This document shows positions 25,728 to 64,000 of a stretch of DNA of 64,000 bases, in pieces. Every line of letters begins with the position of its first letter. Position 1 is the first letter of the stretch. The notes under the pieces were generated by a model that saw only the letters and a list, made by a program, of their open reading frames with translations, did not search any database and had not been told where the DNA came from. The DNA is from Abyssibacter profundi. Its GTDB lineage: Bacteria; Pseudomonadota; Gammaproteobacteria; Nevskiales; OUC007. The stretch spans positions 168,829 through 232,828 of the forward strand of contig NZ_QEQK01000001.1 in assembly GCF_003151135.1 (NCBI RefSeq), written 5' to 3'. Position numbers and translations under genes: made by a program.

Positions 25728-27194
25728 ATGATTACTCGTTTTTGCCGATACGTCGGCGCCTGCGCCGTGGCTGCCGCTGCAGCCGTCCCCATGAGCGCGA
25801 CCGCGCAGGAGTATGACATCGGTTTCGATGATCGCTATTTCCTGTCCGGTAGCGCCGGCTTCCTGGTCACCGACAGTGACGATCAGGACAACGGCGGCTC
25901 GGTCATGCTGACCGGGGGCAAGTTCATCGGCCACCGCACGGCGGTCGAGGCCTTCGCCAGCTACGGCGAGGTCGAGGTCGACCGCATCAGCTCAACCTAC
26001 GAGCGGCTGGTTGCTGGCGGTCATTTCATGCTGTTCCTGAATGACTCGCGCCGCGCCCGCTTCTACGGGCTGTTGGGCGCTGGCCTGCACAGCATCAACT
26101 TCCTGGGCGAAGAGGTGTCCGGGCTGTCGTACAACGGCGGCGGCGGCATCATGTTCCGCCTGAACAACAACCTGGACCTGCGCCTTGAAGGGCAGTACCT
26201 CGTTGACCATATCGATGAAGAAGGCGTGCTGGTTGAAGACGACTTCTACACCTACCGCGCCACACTGGGCCTGCTCTACCGCATCGGCACCTGGCCACCA
26301 CCGCCGCCGGATGCCGATGGCGATGGCGTTGCCGACCGCTTCGACGCCTGCCCCAACACGCCCCCCGGCGTGCTGGTTGATGAGCGCGGTTGCGCCGTGG
26401 ATTCCGACGGCGACGGCGTACCCGACTTCCGCGACAAGTGCCCCGGCACCCCGCGCGGTGTACCGGTCGACAATGACGGCTGCCCGCTGGATGCCGACGG
26501 CGATGGTGTTCCGGACTTCCGCGATAAGTGCCCCAACACCCCGCTGGGTGTGCCGGTGGACCGCAACGGTTGCCCGCTGGACTCCGATGGCGATGGCGTG
26601 ACGGACGCGCAGGACAAGTGCCCGAATACGCCGCAGGGCGTGCCGGTGGATCGCTTTGGCTGTGCGTTCGACACCGATGGCGATGGCGTCCCCGATTACA
26701 AGGACGATTGCCCCAACACCGCACCGGGCGTGGCCGTCAACGAGCGGGGCTGCTCGCTGGATCTGGATGGCGACGGCGTGCTGAACAAGGATGACCTGTG
26801 CCCCAACACGCTGCCGGGGCTGGAGGTCGACAAGACCGGCTGCCCGATCCGCAATCAGGAACTGATCCTCGACGGCGTGCACTTCGAGTTCAACAAGGCC
26901 ACCCTGCGGCCCGACGCCAGAACGATCCTGGATCGCGTGGCCAAGTCGCTACGCGATCAGGTGGACGTCAAAGCCGAGATCGCCGGCCACACGGACTCCA
27001 TCGGTTCTGCCGCCTACAACCAGAAACTGTCGCAGGAGCGCGCAGCCTCGGTCCGTAGCTATCTGATCAGCAAAGGCGTCAGCCCGGACAACCTGATCTC
27101 CAACGGCTATGGCGAGACCCAACCGATCGCCACCAATGACACGGAAGAGGGCCGCGCCCGCAACCGTCGCGTGGAACTGCGCCTGGCCGAATAG
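25728..27194 (+). CDS. OmpA-family outer membrane protein with thrombospondin type-3 repeats
   Basis: A 488-residue protein. A signal peptide (1-27, ending Ala-Thr-Ala-Gln) is followed by an eight-strand-type beta-barrel (about 28-195) with Gly/Tyr/Phe-rich strands. Then come a Pro-rich linker and six calcium-binding thrombospondin-3 repeats (Asp-x-Asp-Gly-Asp-Gly-Val...Cys-Pro-Asn-Thr). The C-terminal OmpA domain binds peptidoglycan (Glu-Phe-Asn-Lys-Ala-Thr-Leu, Gly-His-Thr-Asp-Ser, Asn-Arg-Arg-Val-Glu). It anchors the outer membrane to the wall. ATG 25728 is preceded by AGGGAG (25713-25718). A strong terminator follows at 27218. Confidence 0.94.
   Translation: MITRFCRYVGACAVAAAAAVPMSATAQEYDIGFDDRYFLSGSAGFLVTDSDDQDNGGSVMLTGGKFIGHRTAVEAFASYGEVEVDRISSTYERLVAGGHFMLFLNDSRRARFYGLLGAGLHSINFLGEEVSGLSYNGGGGIMFRLNNNLDLRLEGQYLVDHIDEEGVLVEDDFYTYRATLGLLYRIGTWPPPPPDADGDGVADRFDACPNTPPGVLVDERGCAVDSDGDGVPDFRDKCPGTPRGVPVDNDGCPLDADGDGVPDFRDKCPNTPLGVPVDRNGCPLDSDGDGVTDAQDKCPNTPQGVPVDRFGCAFDTDGDGVPDYKDDCPNTAPGVAVNERGCSLDLDGDGVLNKDDLCPNTLPGLEVDKTGCPIRNQELILDGVHFEFNKATLRPDARTILDRVAKSLRDQVDVKAEIAGHTDSIGSAAYNQKLSQERAASVRSYLISKGVSPDNLISNGYGETQPIATNDTEEGRARNRRVELRLAE
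26310..26849 (+). repeat. Six thrombospondin type-3 repeats in the OmpA-like gene
   Basis: Six tandem units of about 30 codons, each Asp-x-Asp-Gly-Asp-Gly-Val-x-Asp-x-x-Asp-x-Cys-Pro-x-Thr-x-x-Gly-x-x-Val-x-x-x-Gly-Cys. DNA similarity between units is high, so unit number could change by recombination. Each unit should bind calcium and stiffen the linker between barrel and peptidoglycan domain. Confidence 0.85.
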
Positions 27195-47601: not shown

Positions 47602-48835
<1,234 letters not shown>

Positions 48836-48849
<14 letters not shown>

Positions 48850-49249
48850 CCCGTTCGCGCCACCAAGACCGAGCCGATTTTCCCGCGAGCCCAGGCGGAG
48901 TGAGTGCCGCTTGGTCATTCCAAGTCAGCGAACGACACGAATGCGTCGGGAACGTATTCGGACGGCCGCAGGCCGGCCCGAAGGGCGAAGCGCATGGACG
49001 CGCTTCGCAACGCAGGATCGCGGGAAAACCGGCCCGTTCCGTCAGGATTGCGCCTGCAAACCGGCCAGACTGCGTTAGTCGGCGCATCCATGCGCCTCCC
49101 CCGGTGGGCCCGCCTTCGGCGGTTTCAATTCGCTCCCGGCGAATGGGTGCTCGTCGTTCATTTGGAATGACCAAACTTCGCTCCTCGCGCCTTGCCTGGC
49201 CTGTTTGCAGTCAGCAACTTGGCGCCGCGAACGGGTCAGTGTTTCCCTA
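48836..49249. mobile_element. 414-bp palindromic element (MITE-like), no coding capacity
   Basis: The ends are 24-bp perfect inverted repeats (48836-48859 and 49226-49249; TAGGGAAACACTGA then CCCGTTCGCG). Internal landmarks match at equal distances from both ends: TTGGTCATTCCAA at offset 75, GCGCATGGA at offset 154 and AACGCAG at offset 173. So the whole 414 bp is one in-register imperfect palindrome. Flanking 4-mers are CTAG (left) and CTAA (right), both YTAR, the target type of IS5-group elements, whose ends also begin GGAA. It lies between convergent genes; the symporter TGA and the flippase TAG stop are both inside its ends. No transposase frame is present. The gap between the genes holds nothing else. 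Confidence 0.75.
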
Positions 49250-50170
49250 ATCGGCGGCGCGGCGCTGCTGCAGGGTCGGCGGCCGCCCGACGGGGAGCAG
49301 CAGGCCGGCCAAACCGAACACGACGGTCACCAGCAGGACCAACAGGTGCAGGTCAACCGCGGCGGCCAGCATCGCGTCCGGGCCCGCCCCCCAGAGGGCG
49401 GCCACCCCCACCAGGGCGCCTTCATAAGTCCCGGCGCCTGCGACACCATGCACCGGCAACACGAATGACAGTTCACCCGCCACGGTGGCAGCGGCAGCGG
49501 CCTGCAGGGGTAGCTCGACCATGAGCATCAACACGGCCGCCAGCGCGAGAAACTTGCTGTACCACGACAACACGGTCCATGCATAAAGCCTGCGCCATTG
49601 GATGGGGGCTTTGGCCAGCATGTCGCCCACCCAGGCCAACACCCAGCCACGACGCGGGAACCGCTCTCCAAAACGCCGCAGCAACCAGAATCCGGCCGGC
49701 ACCATGGCCAGCCACGCGATCTGACCCAGCAAGGCCGCCGCCCAACCGTACCGCCCCAACATCACGCCCAGCAGGCCAGCACCGAACAGACAGTGGAGAT
49801 CGAACAGCCTGAGCCACACCAACGTCGGGAAGCTGTCCCGTAATCGCAGGCCAAAGTAGCGGGACATGAGCCAGGGAAAGGCGGCTTCTCCCGCCCGTGC
49901 GGGCAGCAGACTGTTGGCGGTGACGTGGATGCAGGACAAGCGCAGCACTGCCGTGAACTGACCTGCCGTAACCGGCAGCGTGGCCAATTGCATACGCGCA
50001 GCGCGAGCCCCATACGAAACCGCCATCAGCAACACGAAGGCCAGATGTACCCACAGCGGCAGCGCCAATGCACGCTGCATCGCCTGGTCCCAACCGACCC
50101 GCTGCTGGAACACGACAAGCAATGCCAGCAGCAGAGCAAGGCCGATGATTCCGGATAGCGTGCGTTTCAC
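49247..50170 (-). CDS. Lysylphosphatidylglycerol synthase TM region/UPF0104 family membrane protein
   Basis: A 307-residue protein with about eight hydrophobic helices. It shows the family motif Ala-Asn-Ser-Leu-Leu-Pro-Ala-Arg-Ala-Gly-Glu near residue 90 and Pro-Val-His-Gly-Val-Ala-Gly-Ala-Gly-Thr-Tyr-Glu-Gly later, typical of the flippase half of MprF-type proteins without the synthase half. It may flip a lipid across the inner membrane. GTG 50170 has GAGG upstream. Its TAG stop lies in the right end of the palindromic element. Confidence 0.88.
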   Translation of the reverse strand: MKRTLSGIIGLALLLALLVVFQQRVGWDQAMQRALALPLWVHLAFVLLMAVSYGARAARMQLATLPVTAGQFTAVLRLSCIHVTANSLLPARAGEAAFPWLMSRYFGLRLRDSFPTLVWLRLFDLHCLFGAGLLGVMLGRYGWAAALLGQIAWLAMVPAGFWLLRRFGERFPRRGWVLAWVGDMLAKAPIQWRRLYAWTVLSWYSKFLALAAVLMLMVELPLQAAAAATVAGELSFVLPVHGVAGAGTYEGALVGVAALWGAGPDAMLAAAVDLHLLVLLVTVVFGLAGLLLPVGRPPTLQQRRAAD

Positions 50171-50229
50171 TGGCGCCTCGTTAGCCCGACCGGGTGCGGT
50201 CGCTTCCCATGAAGACAAATGCCCTGCCC

Positions 50230-50258
50230 CAAACAAACAACGGGCCCCGAAGGGCCCG
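50230..50258 (-). terminator. Rho-independent terminator of fadE
   Basis: Minus-strand CGGGCCC and GGGCCCG pair around a TTCG tetraloop, then GTTGTTTGTTT. It starts 29 bases past the fadE stop. Confidence 0.8.
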
Positions 50259-58310: not shown

Positions 58311-58766
58311 ATGCCTCAACCGACTCCCGAGCAACGTGACGCCATCCGCCAGGAACTGGACCGCTATGTCTGGCTGCTGGACGACTGCATCCGCGTTCCC
58401 GGCACCCGCATTCGCCTGGGTCTGGACAGTCTGGTGGGGCTGATTCCCGGCGTGGGTGATGCGGCCACCGGCGCAGCCGCGCTGGCGCTGGTCTGGCGCG
58501 CGCACCGGCTTGGCGCTCCGCCGGCGCTGCTCGGGCAGATGCTGAAAAATGTCGGTATCGATGTGGCCGTGGGCGCCATACCGGTCGTCGGAGACCTGTT
58601 CGATGTCACCTGGCGGGCCAACCGACGCAATCTCGATCTGCTGCGAGCCCATTTCCATGTCGAGCCGCCCACTGAAAAGGGGCGCCCACAACGCACTCGC
58701 GTGTTACTCATCAGCACGCTGGGACTGCTCGCCGCCATCGGGGCTTTCATCTGGCTGGTGAACTAG
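58311..58766 (+). CDS. DUF4112 family membrane protein
   Basis: A 151-residue protein with the DUF4112 signature: Arg-Ile-Arg-Leu-Gly-Leu-Asp-Ser-Leu-Val-Gly-Leu-Ile-Pro-Gly-Val-Gly-Asp and Ala-Ile-Pro-Val-Val-Gly-Asp-Leu-Phe-Asp. A C-terminal hydrophobic helix ends in Trp-Leu-Val-Asn. The role is unknown. It diverges from plsB. Its TAG stop (58764-58766) is part of the CTAG that begins the 51-bp palindrome. Confidence 0.88.
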   Translation: MPQPTPEQRDAIRQELDRYVWLLDDCIRVPGTRIRLGLDSLVGLIPGVGDAATGAAALALVWRAHRLGAPPALLGQMLKNVGIDVAVGAIPVVGDLFDVTWRANRRNLDLLRAHFHVEPPTEKGRPQRTRVLLISTLGLLAAIGAFIWLVN

Positions 58767-58813
58767 GGAAGCACTGATTGATTCGCGGCGCGAACCAATC
58801 AGTGCTTCCCTAG
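58763..58813. mobile_element. 51-bp palindrome sharing ends with the 414-bp element
   Basis: Left arm 58763-58787 and right arm 58789-58813 are 25-bp inverted repeats with one mismatch and a single central G. Ends read CTAGGGAAGCACTGATTG. The end sequence TAGGGAArCACTGA matches the 414-bp element at 48836, and both have CGCG at the inner arm end. CTAG stands on both sides, consistent with a 4-bp CTAG target duplication. It may be the minimal form of the same element. The left CTAG contains the stop of the DUF4112 gene. The 205 bases beyond, up to 59018, hold the leader of the next gene and no other gene. Confidence 0.75.
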
Positions 58814-59018: not shown

Positions 59019-62000
59019 ATGAAGAACCTGATTCGCGCCGCGCTCGGCATTGTTTTCGTTTGCGCGGCCTCGCCCGCTCTCGCGGTCTCCGTCGAGGTGG
59101 ACACCGGGGGAATGGGCAGCGATTGCAGCCCCGGCCATGCGGCGGGCACCTGCTCGCTGCGCGAGGCGATCGCCTTCATCAATACCCAGGGCACGAGCAG
59201 CGTCCACACCATCACCTTTGCCAGTGGGGTGACGACGGTGACCATTCAGGCGCCGGACCTGCCCGATATCGTCGTGCCGGCGGCGATCACCGGCCCGGTG
59301 ACCATCAACTGCGAGGCCGCCAGCCTCGGCGGCGAGGTCCCAGCGGCGTTTGCGTTCACCACAGCACAAAGCGACGGTTACCGCGTCGACAACCTCAATC
59401 TTGTTGGCTGCGAAACCAGCGACCCGCGGGGCGGGGCGGCGATCTACTTCAATCCGACCGACGGCGCATCCACGCTAACCGTGGATGGTGTGACGATCCA
59501 GGACACCGAGGCCAGCGCAGGCCCCGGCGGCGCCATCAAGATCGCCGCCAGCCACACGGCCGATATCAGCAACACCGTGATTGAGGACGCCAGCGCCGAG
59601 ACCTATGGCGGTGCCATCGATAACCAGGGCTTTCTGACGCTGACCAACTCCCGGCTGGAGAACAACAGCCTGATCACCAGTACTTTCTCGGCGTCCAACG
59701 GCGCAGGTGCAGGCCTGTCCAGCCGCCTAGCCACCACCGGAGGCACAGCGCTTGATGGCGTGGTGATCACCGGCAACAGCGCCGGTGGAGACAACGGCGG
59801 CGGCATCTATGCCGAAATGCAGTTTTCGGCACTGAGCTTTACGATCAACAACACGCTGATCAGCGACAACCAGGCTGCCAACGGCGGCGGCATCTCCATC
59901 GGCCTGAATGGCCCGATCGAACTCACCAATTCCACGCTGTCCGGCAACACCGCAGACGGTGGCGGCAGCCCGGGCACCGAGGGATCGGGCGGCGCCATTT
60001 ACCTGGACGCCGTGAATTCCAACGGCGCGGTCTTCCGTGCCAGCAATTGCACCTTGTCGGGCAATAACGCTGATTTCGGCGCGGCCATCGCCGCTGATCC
60101 CAGCGTGCAGAAAGCCTCCGCCATGACCAACTGCACCATCGCCTTCAACGGGGATGGCGCCGGTAATGGCATCGAAATGCCGGGCACGCAGTTGGAGAAG
60201 GTCTTCCCGGGCAATACCAACAATCCCTTCGCCAAGAACCTGCTGGTCGGCAACGCGCCGCAGAACTGCACCGGGCTGTTCGATCATCTGAATGACACCA
60301 ACAATTCAGGATCCAACCTGGCCAGCGACATGAGTTGCGGCTTCACCCAGGGCACTGATTCTGAAGTTGCTGGCGCTGGTGCGGTCATGATCGATGCCAA
60401 CCTAACCGACAATGGCGGTGCGACACCCACGCATCGCCTGCTCGTCGGCAGTCCGGCAATCGACCTGGGCAACGCCATCGGCACCACCGGCGACCAACGC
60501 GGTGCACCGGCGGCCGATGGCACCAACGACATGACCGATGCGGTCGTGCGCGACTCGGGCGCCTACGAGTTTGCCGGATTCTCGGCCGTGGAATTCGCCG
60601 ACCCCAGCCTGTCCGTCGACGAGGACGACACCCCGCTGCAGTTCGTGCTGCGCCGATATGGCGACGTCAGCCAGGCCCTGGGCGGCGTGTCGATCAGCAC
60701 GGAGGAAGGGACGGCTGACGCCACCGACTACGACGCGACGCCCATGCCGGCGACGATCGACTTTGCCGCGGGTGTGACCACCTCCGCGCAGATCGACGTG
60801 GGCATCGTCGACGACACCACCGACGAGGAAGACGAAGATTTCTCCCTGCTGCTCGGCGGTGTGACCGTCTGGGATCTGGGTGCGCAGCAGCCGGCCAACG
60901 TCACGATTCGTGAAGTCGAAGTCGGCACGGTCGAATTCGAGTTCGACGATTCCAGCAATCCGCTGGTGGTCTCCGAAGACGCCGGCACGCTCACCGTTAC
61001 GCTGACCCGCACGGGCGGCACCGACAAGCAGGTGCAGGTGGTCGTCAACTCTACCGATGGCACGGCAAGCAGCGTGGGTGACGAAGACTATGTCGCGATC
61101 AGCGACCTGACGGTCACCTTCCCCGATGGCAGTGCGTCGCAGACCTTCAACGTCAGCATCATCGACGACAACGCCTACGACCCCAACAACATCGATTTCA
61201 CGCTGACGCTGAGCGAGCCAGCCGATCAACCCGCCAATTTCGAACTCGGCTCGAACTCCGTACTCAATGTCGAAATCGATTCCGAAGATGCCGCGATGGC
61301 AGGCGAGTTCAGCCTGACCGAGGCGGGTGTCAACGTCACCGAGGGCACCAACACCACAGCCGAATTCACCGTCCAGCGTCTGGTGGGTTCGGACTGCACG
61401 GTGACCGTGAACTATTCAACGAACTCCGGAACGGCGGACGAAGGCTCCGACTTCACCGGAACCAGCGGTAGCCTGATCTTCAACGACGGCGTCACCACCG
61501 ATCAGACCATCAGCATTCCGATTGCCGACGATGCGGTCCGCGAAGGCGATGAACGCTTCACGCTGACGCTGGACAGTGCCGATGTCTCCAACTGTGAATC
61601 CGGCGCCAGCGCGACCCTGGCCACGCCGTCCACCGGCACGGTTGTCATCCGCTCCGACGAGTTGGTGCAGTTCGGTTTCGAACAAACCAGCTGGGCCGCC
61701 AACGAGGCCGACGGACAAATCGAAATCAGTGTGCGTCCCCTCCAGGCCGTAACCGGTGACGACGTGGTCATCAGCTACACGACCCTAGATGGCACGGCCA
61801 CCGCGCCAGAAGACTACGCCGCCACCACGGGCACCCTCACCTGGTCGGATGGCGAAGGCACCGATGCCGTCAAGCAATTCACCGTGCCCCTTGTGGCCGA
61901 CGACGACGCTGAGGGCAACGAGGGCCTCACGGTGGAACTCACCTCCATGAGCGCCTACGCCGAGATCAGTGGCACCAATCCGACGCCGGTCACCATTGAA

Positions 62001-64000
62001 GACCGACTGGGCATCCGCTTCACCGACACCACCTTCGTATCCGACCGTGAAAACGGGGGCACCATCGTGGCCACTGTTGAACGCGTGGGTGCGGCCACCC
62101 AAGCCGCGCAGGTCGATATCAGCACCGCGCAGCTGGACCCGGTGTCGGCTGAATCCGATGTCGATTACCAGGCCAAGACCGAAGTCGTGACCTGGGCCGC
62201 CGGTGACGACACACCCAAGACGGTGACCTTCTCGGTGATTGGCGATTCCGAGCTGGAAGGTGACGAACAGTTCCAACTGGTCCTGGATAACGAGATCAAC
62301 GCCATTCTGGTCGAGCCATCCACTGCCACGGCGGTTATCACCGATGACGACAGCGCCGTCGCACTGGATGCCGCAACCTACGCGGTCATCGAGAACGAAG
62401 GTGTGGTCACGGTTTCGCTGACCCGCACCGGCGCCTTTGGTGAGATTTCGGTGGACTATGCGACTACCGACGGCAGCGCAGTCGCCGGCACGGACTACAC
62501 CGCCACCAACGGCACGGTGACCTGGCTGGATGGCGAATCCGGCGCCAAGACCGTCACGGTGGCCGTACTGAATGACGATGCGCCCGAATCCGCCAAGGAC
62601 TTCAGCCTCACGCTCAGCAACCCACAGCCGGCAGGCACGGTCACGCTGGTCGACCCGACCACAACCACCATCACCATTGCCGATGATGACTCCATCATCG
62701 AAATGGACGCGCCGACGCTCTCGGTTGACGAGGATGGCGGCACGGTCACCGTCAGCGCCACGCGCAGCGGCGCTGCACTGGGTCCGGCTTCCGTGACGAT
62801 CGCCACCAGCGATGGGACGGCCACCTCCGGCATCGACTATGACCAGACGATGGCCGGGCTGTCTTGGGTGGACGGTGAAACCGGCAGCAAGTCGGTCAGC
62901 ATCGCGATCCTGGACAACGACGACGTTGACGGCGATCTGGCCTTCAGTGTGTCCCTGAGCGCCCCGACACCGTCGGACCGCACGCACCTCGGAACGCAGA
63001 CGCAAACCGACATCACCATCGTCGATAACGATTCCATCATCGAACTCGTCGCGGCCACGGCCACGGCACTGGAGTCCGACGGCTCGTTGGTGATCTCGGC
63101 GACCCGTACCGGCAGCTTCGGCGCCGCCACGGTGAACTACGCCACCGCAGACGGTTCGGCGCAGGCGGGGACGCATTACACCGCCGCCTCCGGCACCTTC
63201 GAGTGGGCCAATGGCGAAGACGGCACCAAGTCGGTCACCATCAGCCTGACGGATGACGCCGAGGTCAACGCGGATCGTGACTTCAGCCTGAGCATCGACA
63301 CGCCCAGCCCATCGGCGGATGTCCAGCTGGGCAGCACGACGACCACCGCCGTCACGCTCACCAACGACGATTCCACCGTCACGCTGACCACCGCGGCGGT
63401 CGCCGCGCCGGAAGGCGACGGCCAGATCGTGTTCTTGGCCGAGCGCACAGGTGACTTTGGAGCGGCCACTATCGACTTTGCTACGGCCGACGGCTCGGCC
63501 ACGGCACCGGATGACTACACCGCCAACAGCGGCAGCGTCAGCTGGAACGATGGCGAGGCAGGGCAGAAGATGATCACGGTGACCATTGCCGACAACGATG
63601 TCGTCGATGCCGACCGCGACTTCAGCCTGACGCTCAGCAACCCCGACCCGAATACCCGGGTCCGCCTGGGCGCCATCGAGACAGCCACGGCCACCATCCA
63701 GGATGACGACACCGTCATCACCCTGGATGCGGCGACCGCCTCGGCCATCGAAAGTGACGGCACGGTCACGCTGACTGCCACACGCTCCGGTACCCGCGGC
63801 ACGGCCACGGTCACCGTCCGCACTGCCGATGGCTCAGCCGCCGACGGCGTGCACTACACCGGCGTCGATTCCAGCCTCAGCTGGGCCGATGGCGAGGATG
63901 GCAGCAAGAGCATCACCGTCGAGATCGCCGATGACCTCGTCGTCAACGCTGATCGCGACTTCACCCTGAGCATCAGCAACCCGATGCCGTCGGGGCTAGT
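59019..64000 (+). CDS. Giant secreted Calx-beta repeat protein with N-terminal beta-helix (partial, runs off the window)
   Basis: At least 1660 codons, open to the window end. A signal peptide (1-22, ending Ala-Leu-Ala) is followed by Cys-Ser-Leu-Arg-Glu-Ala-Ile (45-51) and a beta-helix domain with Gly-Gly-Ala-Ile and Asn-Ser/Asn-Thr turns to about 500 (choice-of-anchor Q-like end with Asp-Gln-Arg-Gly). From about 524 ten Calx-beta domains follow in tandem, each with Val-Xaa-Glu-Asp/Glu-Gly-Gly, Ala-Thr-x-Asp-Gly-x-Ala and Asp-Asp-Ser/Thr. They should bind calcium. ATG 59019 has GGGGAG 59005-59010. It is probably a surface adhesin or matrix protein. The C-terminal anchor lies outside. No stop occurs in the window, so gene finders requiring a stop may miss it. 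Confidence 0.88.
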   Translation, partial: MKNLIRAALGIVFVCAASPALAVSVEVDTGGMGSDCSPGHAAGTCSLREAIAFINTQGTSSVHTITFASGVTTVTIQAPDLPDIVVPAAITGPVTINCEAASLGGEVPAAFAFTTAQSDGYRVDNLNLVGCETSDPRGGAAIYFNPTDGASTLTVDGVTIQDTEASAGPGGAIKIAASHTADISNTVIEDASAETYGGAIDNQGFLTLTNSRLENNSLITSTFSASNGAGAGLSSRLATTGGTALDGVVITGNSAGGDNGGGIYAEMQFSALSFTINNTLISDNQAANGGGISIGLNGPIELTNSTLSGNTADGGGSPGTEGSGGAIYLDAVNSNGAVFRASNCTLSGNNADFGAAIAADPSVQKASAMTNCTIAFNGDGAGNGIEMPGTQLEKVFPGNTNNPFAKNLLVGNAPQNCTGLFDHLNDTNNSGSNLASDMSCGFTQGTDSEVAGAGAVMIDANLTDNGGATPTHRLLVGSPAIDLGNAIGTTGDQRGAPAADGTNDMTDAVVRDSGAYEFAGFSAVEFADPSLSVDEDDTPLQFVLRRYGDVSQALGGVSISTEEGTADATDYDATPMPATIDFAAGVTTSAQIDVGIVDDTTDEEDEDFSLLLGGVTVWDLGAQQPANVTIREVEVGTVEFEFDDSSNPLVVSEDAGTLTVTLTRTGGTDKQVQVVVNSTDGTASSVGDEDYVAISDLTVTFPDGSASQTFNVSIIDDNAYDPNNIDFTLTLSEPADQPANFELGSNSVLNVEIDSEDAAMAGEFSLTEAGVNVTEGTNTTAEFTVQRLVGSDCTVTVNYSTNSGTADEGSDFTGTSGSLIFNDGVTTDQTISIPIADDAVREGDERFTLTLDSADVSNCESGASATLATPSTGTVVIRSDELVQFGFEQTSWAANEADGQIEISVRPLQAVTGDDVVISYTTLDGTATAPEDYAATTGTLTWSDGEGTDAVKQFTVPLVADDDAEGNEGLTVELTSMSAYAEISGTNPTPVTIEDRLGIRFTDTTFVSDRENGGTIVATVERVGAATQAAQVDISTAQLDPVSAESDVDYQAKTEVVTWAAGDDTPKTVTFSVIGDSELEGDEQFQLVLDNEINAILVEPSTATAVITDDDSAVALDAATYAVIENEGVVTVSLTRTGAFGEISVDYATTDGSAVAGTDYTATNGTVTWLDGESGAKTVTVAVLNDDAPESAKDFSLTLSNPQPAGTVTLVDPTTTTITIADDDSIIEMDAPTLSVDEDGGTVTVSATRSGAALGPASVTIATSDGTATSGIDYDQTMAGLSWVDGETGSKSVSIAILDNDDVDGDLAFSVSLSAPTPSDRTHLGTQTQTDITIVDNDSIIELVAATATALESDGSLVISATRTGSFGAATVNYATADGSAQAGTHYTAASGTFEWANGEDGTKSVTISLTDDAEVNADRDFSLSIDTPSPSADVQLGSTTTTAVTLTNDDSTVTLTTAAVAAPEGDGQIVFLAERTGDFGAATIDFATADGSATAPDDYTANSGSVSWNDGEAGQKMITVTIADNDVVDADRDFSLTLSNPDPNTRVRLGAIETATATIQDDDTVITLDAATASAIESDGTVTLTATRSGTRGTATVTVRTADGSAADGVHYTGVDSSLSWADGEDGSKSITVEIADDLVVNADRDFTLSISNPMPSGL
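60588..64000 (+). repeat. Tandem array of ten Calx-beta domains
   Basis: Domain starts are near 60588, 60931, 61303, 61668, 62011, 62358, 62698, 63040, 63379 and 63718 (spacing 339-372 bases, about 114 codons). The last is cut by the window end. The later units (from 62358) are more alike, with recurring Thr-Asp-Gly-Ser-Ala, Trp-x-Asp-Gly-Glu and Asp-Arg-Asp-Phe-Ser-Leu motifs, as if amplified more recently. Confidence 0.85.

Follow-up and report, generated by a model that had tools for sequence, protein, structure and literature searches.

The window, the whole stretch of 64 kb that was analyzed, contains a 151-aa open reading frame (ORF) at 58311–58766 on the plus strand, which we take to be the DUF4112 gene of the initial annotation. 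Its TAG stop codon (58764–58766, plus strand) is part of a CTAG that opens a 51-bp palindrome located exactly at 58763–58813. This palindrome occurs only once in the window and constitutes a minimal element that has terminal arms and one central base, with CTAG at its left and right sides; 24 of the 25 arm positions are complementary. The description given in the initial annotation, namely 25-bp arms joined by one base between two CTAGs, the left one holding the stop of the gene, is therefore accurate. A search for palindromes of the same 25+1+25 build with at least 20 pairs revealed no second one in the window, nor any in 160 kb from other stretches of the same genome. Folding of the 51-mer yields −38.4 kcal/mol on one strand and −42.5 kcal/mol on the other (z approximately −10.5), and none of 200 shuffles gave an equally good RNA fold.

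In two congeners (G001 and G002), the counterpart of the 151-aa ORF stops at its own TAA and the palindrome is absent, so the empty site that the initial annotation had proposed to look for in relatives exists, at a site where these genomes are only approximately 77% alike and the exact insertion joint is unreadable. A near-perfect hairpin right at a gene end might be an ordinary terminator or REP that stands behind the gene by chance, but this is very improbable in view of the genome-wide copies with common ends, the YTAR flanks, the empty sites in relatives, and the absence of a T-run 3′ of the hairpin; as the sole explanation, it is refuted by the family and the empty site.

A full copy of the structured element, 414 bp long, lies at 48836–49249 (plus strand) and is recognized by the model R1 described below with 144 bits (E 1.1e-38). 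The end TAGGGAArCACTGA is common to this copy and the 51-bp palindrome, as was noted initially; the latter is too short for R1, and its family assignment is via the arms only. The left terminal arm (stem P1) of the 414-bp copy occupies 48836–48869 and the right arm 49218–49249 (both plus strand), and the copy-specific ACCCGTTCG is present in both. Each of its hairpins has an optional 72-bp module with boundaries set by eye against copy L112: that of hairpin A (approximately 48938–49009, plus strand) is missing from 264-bp copies, and that of hairpin B (approximately 49077–49148, plus strand) is missing from 264-bp copies and from 336-bp copies like L105. The copy cuts the C-terminus of a transporter-like ORF (47602–48849, plus strand), whose last residues it has replaced and for which it supplies a TGA stop within the element (overlap 48836–48849), while its right boundary is the TAG stop of a 329-aa ORF on the minus strand (49247–50236). 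The suggestion that this copy also sits on a stop codon thus stands for the right end but not for the left. The element is absent from this site in both congeners, where the transporter proteins end differently (...LVDARS and ...LVASGR before the stop). Elsewhere in the window, period-90 direct repeats and spaced repeats of approximately 130 nt were seen in coding-looking regions at 26304–26830 and 61450–63982.

With at most one mismatch allowed, the genome (G000) contains 88 occurrences of the end pattern against nine of the reversed control, and the 414-bp element as a query gave 91 matching pieces. Sixty places were fetched, of which 30 were kept as two-ended copies under an arm filter of at most nine mismatches of 22, after three chance pairs (L068, 353 bp; L088, 340 bp; L117) had been dropped; the remaining 30 have no second end, owing to contig ends, decay, or chance. 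The genome therefore has at least 30 two-ended copies of 43 to approximately 415 bp. Measured from GGAA to TTCC, six are 407–415 bp, six are 336 bp, eight are 264 bp, and 10 are 43–178 bp long, the 336- and 408-bp forms having one and two additional 72-bp modules, one per hairpin. Contigs C2, C3, C4, C9, C13, C17, C18, and C25 start or end inside element copies, and since the assembly breaks at copies, the copy numbers are lower bounds. The idea of one mobile family with a long and a minimal form agrees with these shared ends, and both forms occur; their lengths, however, make up a series rather than two classes. A 97-bp element (L104, G000:C11, with L131/L135 in G003:C124) lies on a 4-kb contig and has flanks that the two genera share at approximately 99% identity, which may reflect recent transfer or a binning error.

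The short copies L081, L089, L096, L104, and L079 retain differing interior remnants and for this reason look like separate internal deletions. The reverse order, in which the minimal palindrome is older and the long copies arose from a cargo hairpin cassette entering its apex, is compatible with the recurrence of minimal hairpins of approximately 43–62 bp (L071, L086, L074, and L081 in this genome; L145 in G001) and with elements of G003 that share the interior and have quite different ends. It is nevertheless an improbable course of events, as the full fold with its conserved interior is found across many genera and the different remnants in the short copies are what separate deletions would leave. 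We read the 51-bp palindrome as the smallest form of a self-folding mobile DNA element, probably reduced by internal deletion; taken by itself, the hairpin is an ordinary minimal derivative.

The flanks of the copies are rich in YTAR, which is present at 36 of 60 sides compared with 0.19% of positions in 224 kb, an enrichment that is partly non-independent because the first pattern scan fixed TAG at one end. YTAR flanking, one of the points on which the initial annotation was open to refutation, is thus observed. Its 4-bp target duplication fares less well. CTAG is its own complement, so the right flank of the 51-bp copy (58810–58813) cannot separate a 4-bp from a TA duplication; the copy is uninformative in this respect, and a CTAG duplication deduced from it alone was rejected. 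Among the 30 copies, two have identical non-palindromic 4-mers (CTAA and CTTG, in copies L077 and L121), six have palindromic ones, six share TA only, and 16 have lost TA on one side. TA, itself palindromic, is kept on both sides of 13 of these 30 copies and of 41 of 60 other structured elements (regex). The 41, which have other ends, consist of 26 with TA and a complementary inner pair, 13 palindromic, and two neither, with no non-palindromic 4-bp repeat; their target is xTAy with a nearly constant inner G-C pair. Of 31 non-coding elements with IS5-type ends in other genomes, 12 have clear 4-bp repeats. Judged from its flanking sequences, the structured family as a whole appears to target YTAR and to duplicate TA, whereas the branch of this genus has ends like those of IS5 and no fewer than two repeats of 4 bp.

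A stop codon, assigned by ORF length and codon score rather than by annotation, falls in the flanking 4-mer on one or both sides of 15 of the 30 copies. CTAG is rare in this genome: the window and eight 20-kb stretches (224 kb), used as the null, contain 31 CTAGs at stops, 60 in coding, and 30 in intergenic sequence. The share at stops equals that among the non-coding CTAG sites (31/61; binomial P = 1.0), with a slight excess over all non-coding YTAR sites (50/163; P = 0.028). Special stop targeting is not needed, since stops make up half of the CTAGs in which an insertion would leave genes intact, and stop codons as a specific target were rejected because this null accounts for their share. 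Structured elements with different ends lie in the same intergenic region of this genome and of G003 (L107 and L180); a shared insertion was rejected for this pair, as the two lie on opposite sides of a terminator and appear to be independent hits.

The core of 264 bp is composed of a terminal stem of approximately 34 bp and two long hairpins with a small hairpin between them, and its fold has a z of −16 as RNA and −16.6 as DNA. A similar fold is found in elements of comparable length from Methylonatrum, an Ectothiorhodospiraceae MAG, and G003, while blastn aligns little beyond the ends. Of 369 genomes sampled from the class, 33 contain matches to a 75-bp interior piece, and the class elements with clear arms are 265–285 bp long and have very different arms (GGGCCTGTTAACAC, GAGCCTGTCTGTG, and GGGGGTGTTAACA among others). 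In G003, which belongs to the same family as the window genome, the interior is up to 94% identical over 63 bp, yet the ends are GGGCCTGTTCACAC. An alignment (A1) was made of 18 elements from 17 genomes that were picked for clean arms (L375 and L383 had arms and were left out), a choice that biases it toward terminal stem pairing. Two-sided, compensatory changes occur in 69 of its 94 pairs; 95.6% of the cells are paired, against 75.4% when shuffled and 34–43% when slid, and covariation is 0.548 versus 0.163, a value reached in none of 500 shuffles.

The model R1, built from A1, detects the elements of Methylonatrum, Ectothiorhodospiraceae, and G003 (L139), all outside its training set (E 1e-21 to 1e-33), and gave a best E of 0.037 on eight 20-kb control stretches of the own genome. 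In a sample of the phylum, 99 of 398 Pseudomonadota genomes and 52 of 213 genera have a member (E at most 1e-6). Full-length members are also present on plasmids of Halomonas sp. PA16-9, Azotobacter chroococcum, and P. aeruginosa, and the feature tables list no annotated feature at these members, that of Halomonas consisting of one feature for the whole plasmid. Blastn against phages and E. coli genomes gave no match. Rfam searches of six sources at the gathering threshold returned one tRNA only, and those of eight loci at E at most 1 returned only microRNA models far below gathering. Without its modules, the full element is approximately 270 bp long, with a conserved branched fold and most of its sequence changed. 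It seems undescribed as a family, no prior description having been found in the open-license PMC literature; it seems to be of the MITE kind, although it might represent a kind of its own.

The two arms of a copy match each other more closely than those of different copies. Arms within a copy differ at 2.03 of 22 positions compared with 4.02 when right arms are shuffled (n = 30; none of 5,000 shuffles as low), and with relatives included, the values are 1.97 and 4.05 (n = 39). Among 26 long copies (L139 and L181 were excluded from this comparison), copies differ by 17–19% in the arms versus a mean of 8.4% in the interiors; Mantel correlations of the arms with the interior are 0.09 and 0.02, against 0.61 between left and right arms (0/2,000). 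For instance, L121 and L091 have nearly equal interiors and very different arms (GAGTTATCC and GATTGATTCG, respectively). Across A1, the terminal arms have 101 two-sided changes versus one one-sided and 0.7% G-U, and the lower hairpin B has 56 versus none, while the mid hairpin A has 33 two-sided and 16 one-sided changes with 13% G-U.

The fold might also be kept by selection on a working transcribed RNA, such as a stabilizer, a terminator-like hairpin, or an sRNA. The stability of the fold on either strand, the covariation, the conserved apex sequences, and the position of the element directly 3′ of genes would all suit such an RNA, as would the 8–16% G-U in parts of hairpin A, the small hairpin, and upper hairpin B. 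This account is unlikely all the same, because pairing in the terminal arms and in lower hairpin B is nearly all Watson–Crick, with next to no one-sided changes and no strand bias, the T-run is missing after the 51-bp hairpin, and Rfam has no matching family. No strand is preferred, since G-U and A-C are equally rare (13 and 16), and arm mismatches are 19 versus 11 by strand when the fixed position 24 is disregarded; on these counts, the idea that RNA-strand selection made the arms match was rejected. With one-sided states and strand bias nearly absent, the matched arms are better accounted for by one arm serving as the template for the other, or by DNA pairing, than by RNA selection with G-U intermediates. 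Homogenization of inverted-repeat arms by template switching is documented (PMC8604942). Template switching explains the equal arms of a copy, not the greater divergence of arms than interiors between copies.

The family ends, YTAR-GGAARCRCTGATYWA, connect the element to IS5-type transposons. The exact 22-base end pattern is present in at least 118 stretches from Lachnospiraceae, Dialister, Treponema, Nitrosomonas, Thiobacillus, and others, and at two loci (L242 and L247), family-type ends enclose IS5-family transposases (NF033581, PF05598, and PF01609). In the same order as the window genome, two IS5-family elements have nearly the same ends bordering their genes (GGAAACACTGATCAAG in L316 and GGAAGCTCTGATTTATTCCG in L327), with TTAA and CTAG repeats. 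Dialister, Thiobacillus, and Nitrosomonas (L188, L198, L201, L230, L234, L243, and L254) possess many MITEs of 130–160 bp with the same ends and asymmetric arms, several of which show clear YTAR 4-bp repeats; R1 gave no match on the IS5-type MITEs of these three genera. In G431, 151 exact TAGGGCCTGTTMACACT ends were counted, and one pair 67 bp apart (C11:46276–46342) is likely a minimal form like the 51-bp copy of the window.

A transposase was searched for among two families. NF033581 has no match in G000, G002, and G003, and no PF13358 (DDE_3) transposase is above the cut-off in G000; that neither family was found above the cut-off in this genome counts against the explanation by a trans-acting transposase given below. 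G001 has one complete IS5-family element (NF033581), L305 (G001:C284, 1365–2568); its TTAA-GGARRCTCTGCAC ends are related yet different, and it lies within a gene that is EAL-like by eye. An IS630-type partner was rejected, as the lone weak PF13358 match sits in an ORF that is IS3/rve-like by eye. An autonomous partner with GGGCCTGTT ends was also rejected, since none of the 30 loci with paired GGGCCTGTT-type ends contains a transposase ORF between them; G003 has 11 ends of this type outside these loci.

The mover could instead be a TA-duplicating (Tc1/IS630-like) or otherwise unknown enzyme, the IS5-like ends of this genus being a coincidence or a later adaptation. The xTAy target, the near-constant inner G-C, and the lack of non-palindromic 4-bp repeats in the 41 other-ended elements point to such an enzyme, as do the 30 loci without a transposase ORF; the ends equal to those of IS5-family elements, the 4-bp repeats in L077 and L121, and the missing DDE_3 transposase count against it, and it may be regarded as possible but rather doubtful. 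IS5-type transposition is likewise not proven for the structured family, because clear 4-bp duplications are found in 12 of 31 elements elsewhere, two of 30 here, and none of 41 with other ends. What moves the element is a point that we infer from sequence.

The explanation that we consider probable is that the 51-bp palindrome is an internal-deletion product of a non-autonomous mobile element. A trans-acting transposase would recognize the conserved outer 11–15 bp, and insertion would take place at YTAR with duplication of TA, sometimes of four bases; the copies in this genus carry IS5-family ends. Insertions would survive where no gene breaks, half of such CTAG sites being TAG stops, and an element that lands on a stop would restore it. 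The arms of a copy may be kept alike when one is copied from the other in folded-back DNA by template switching, and the same fold-back would favor loss of the interior by slippage, leaving a bare hairpin.

A wider proposal is put forward more tentatively and may well fail. The element would belong to a very widespread class of bacterial mobile DNA in which the structure is conserved and the sequence is rewritten in matched pairs, both arms included, and in which one folded body has acquired ends that belong to different transposition systems (GGAARCACTGAT, GGGCCTGTTMACAC, and GAGCCTGTC); renewal of the arms by copying in the folded single strand might then let an element exchange the end type on both sides simultaneously and, with it, the enzyme that it parasitizes. 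If true, a repeat of approximately 270 bp in 99 of 398 Pseudomonadota genomes would be an unnamed mobile family with a fold at the DNA level and a natural record of the pairwise rewriting of inverted repeats. Three questions would become testable: how a non-autonomous element passes from one transposase to another, whether palindromes are copied often enough to drive mobile DNA evolution, and why palindromic repeats cluster at gene ends, for which the target sequence and gene avoidance are enough here.

Correia elements and RUP are TA-duplicating bacterial MITEs that form hairpins, are intergenic, and have many copies. The family described here is like them in the TA core, hairpins, intergenic sites, and copy number, but its ends differ, its hairpins branch from a long terminal stem, and it spans many families with a common fold, in a genome with no DDE_3 above the cut-off. 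REPs, which are tetranucleotide-headed and associated with RAYT, differ from it in ends and target. TA-duplicating bacterial MITEs are the subject of a review (PMC10969869).

The IS5-family MITEs (NF033581 or PF05598 plus PF01609 type) resemble this family in their YTAR-GGAARCRCTGATYWA ends and in having no coding capacity; its copies of 43–415 bp contain no transposase gene. YTAR is likewise given as the target of IS5 in PMC10359306. The family differs from these MITEs in that its genome has no NF033581 partner and the 4-bp repeat is mostly unseen, and the ordinary IS5-type MITEs of Dialister, Thiobacillus, and Nitrosomonas are without its conserved branched fold. The repeats R0, R2, R6, R26 (352 bp), and R200 (320 bp) of P. 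fluorescens are palindromic or MITE-like with a gene-end bias (PMC2718517), a likeness by description only. Quasipalindrome correction is similar in that mutual copying evens out the two arms of an inverted repeat; the repeats for which it is documented (PMC8604942) are short, whereas the arms here are approximately 25–33 bp long, lie up to approximately 360 bp apart, and belong to a mobile family.
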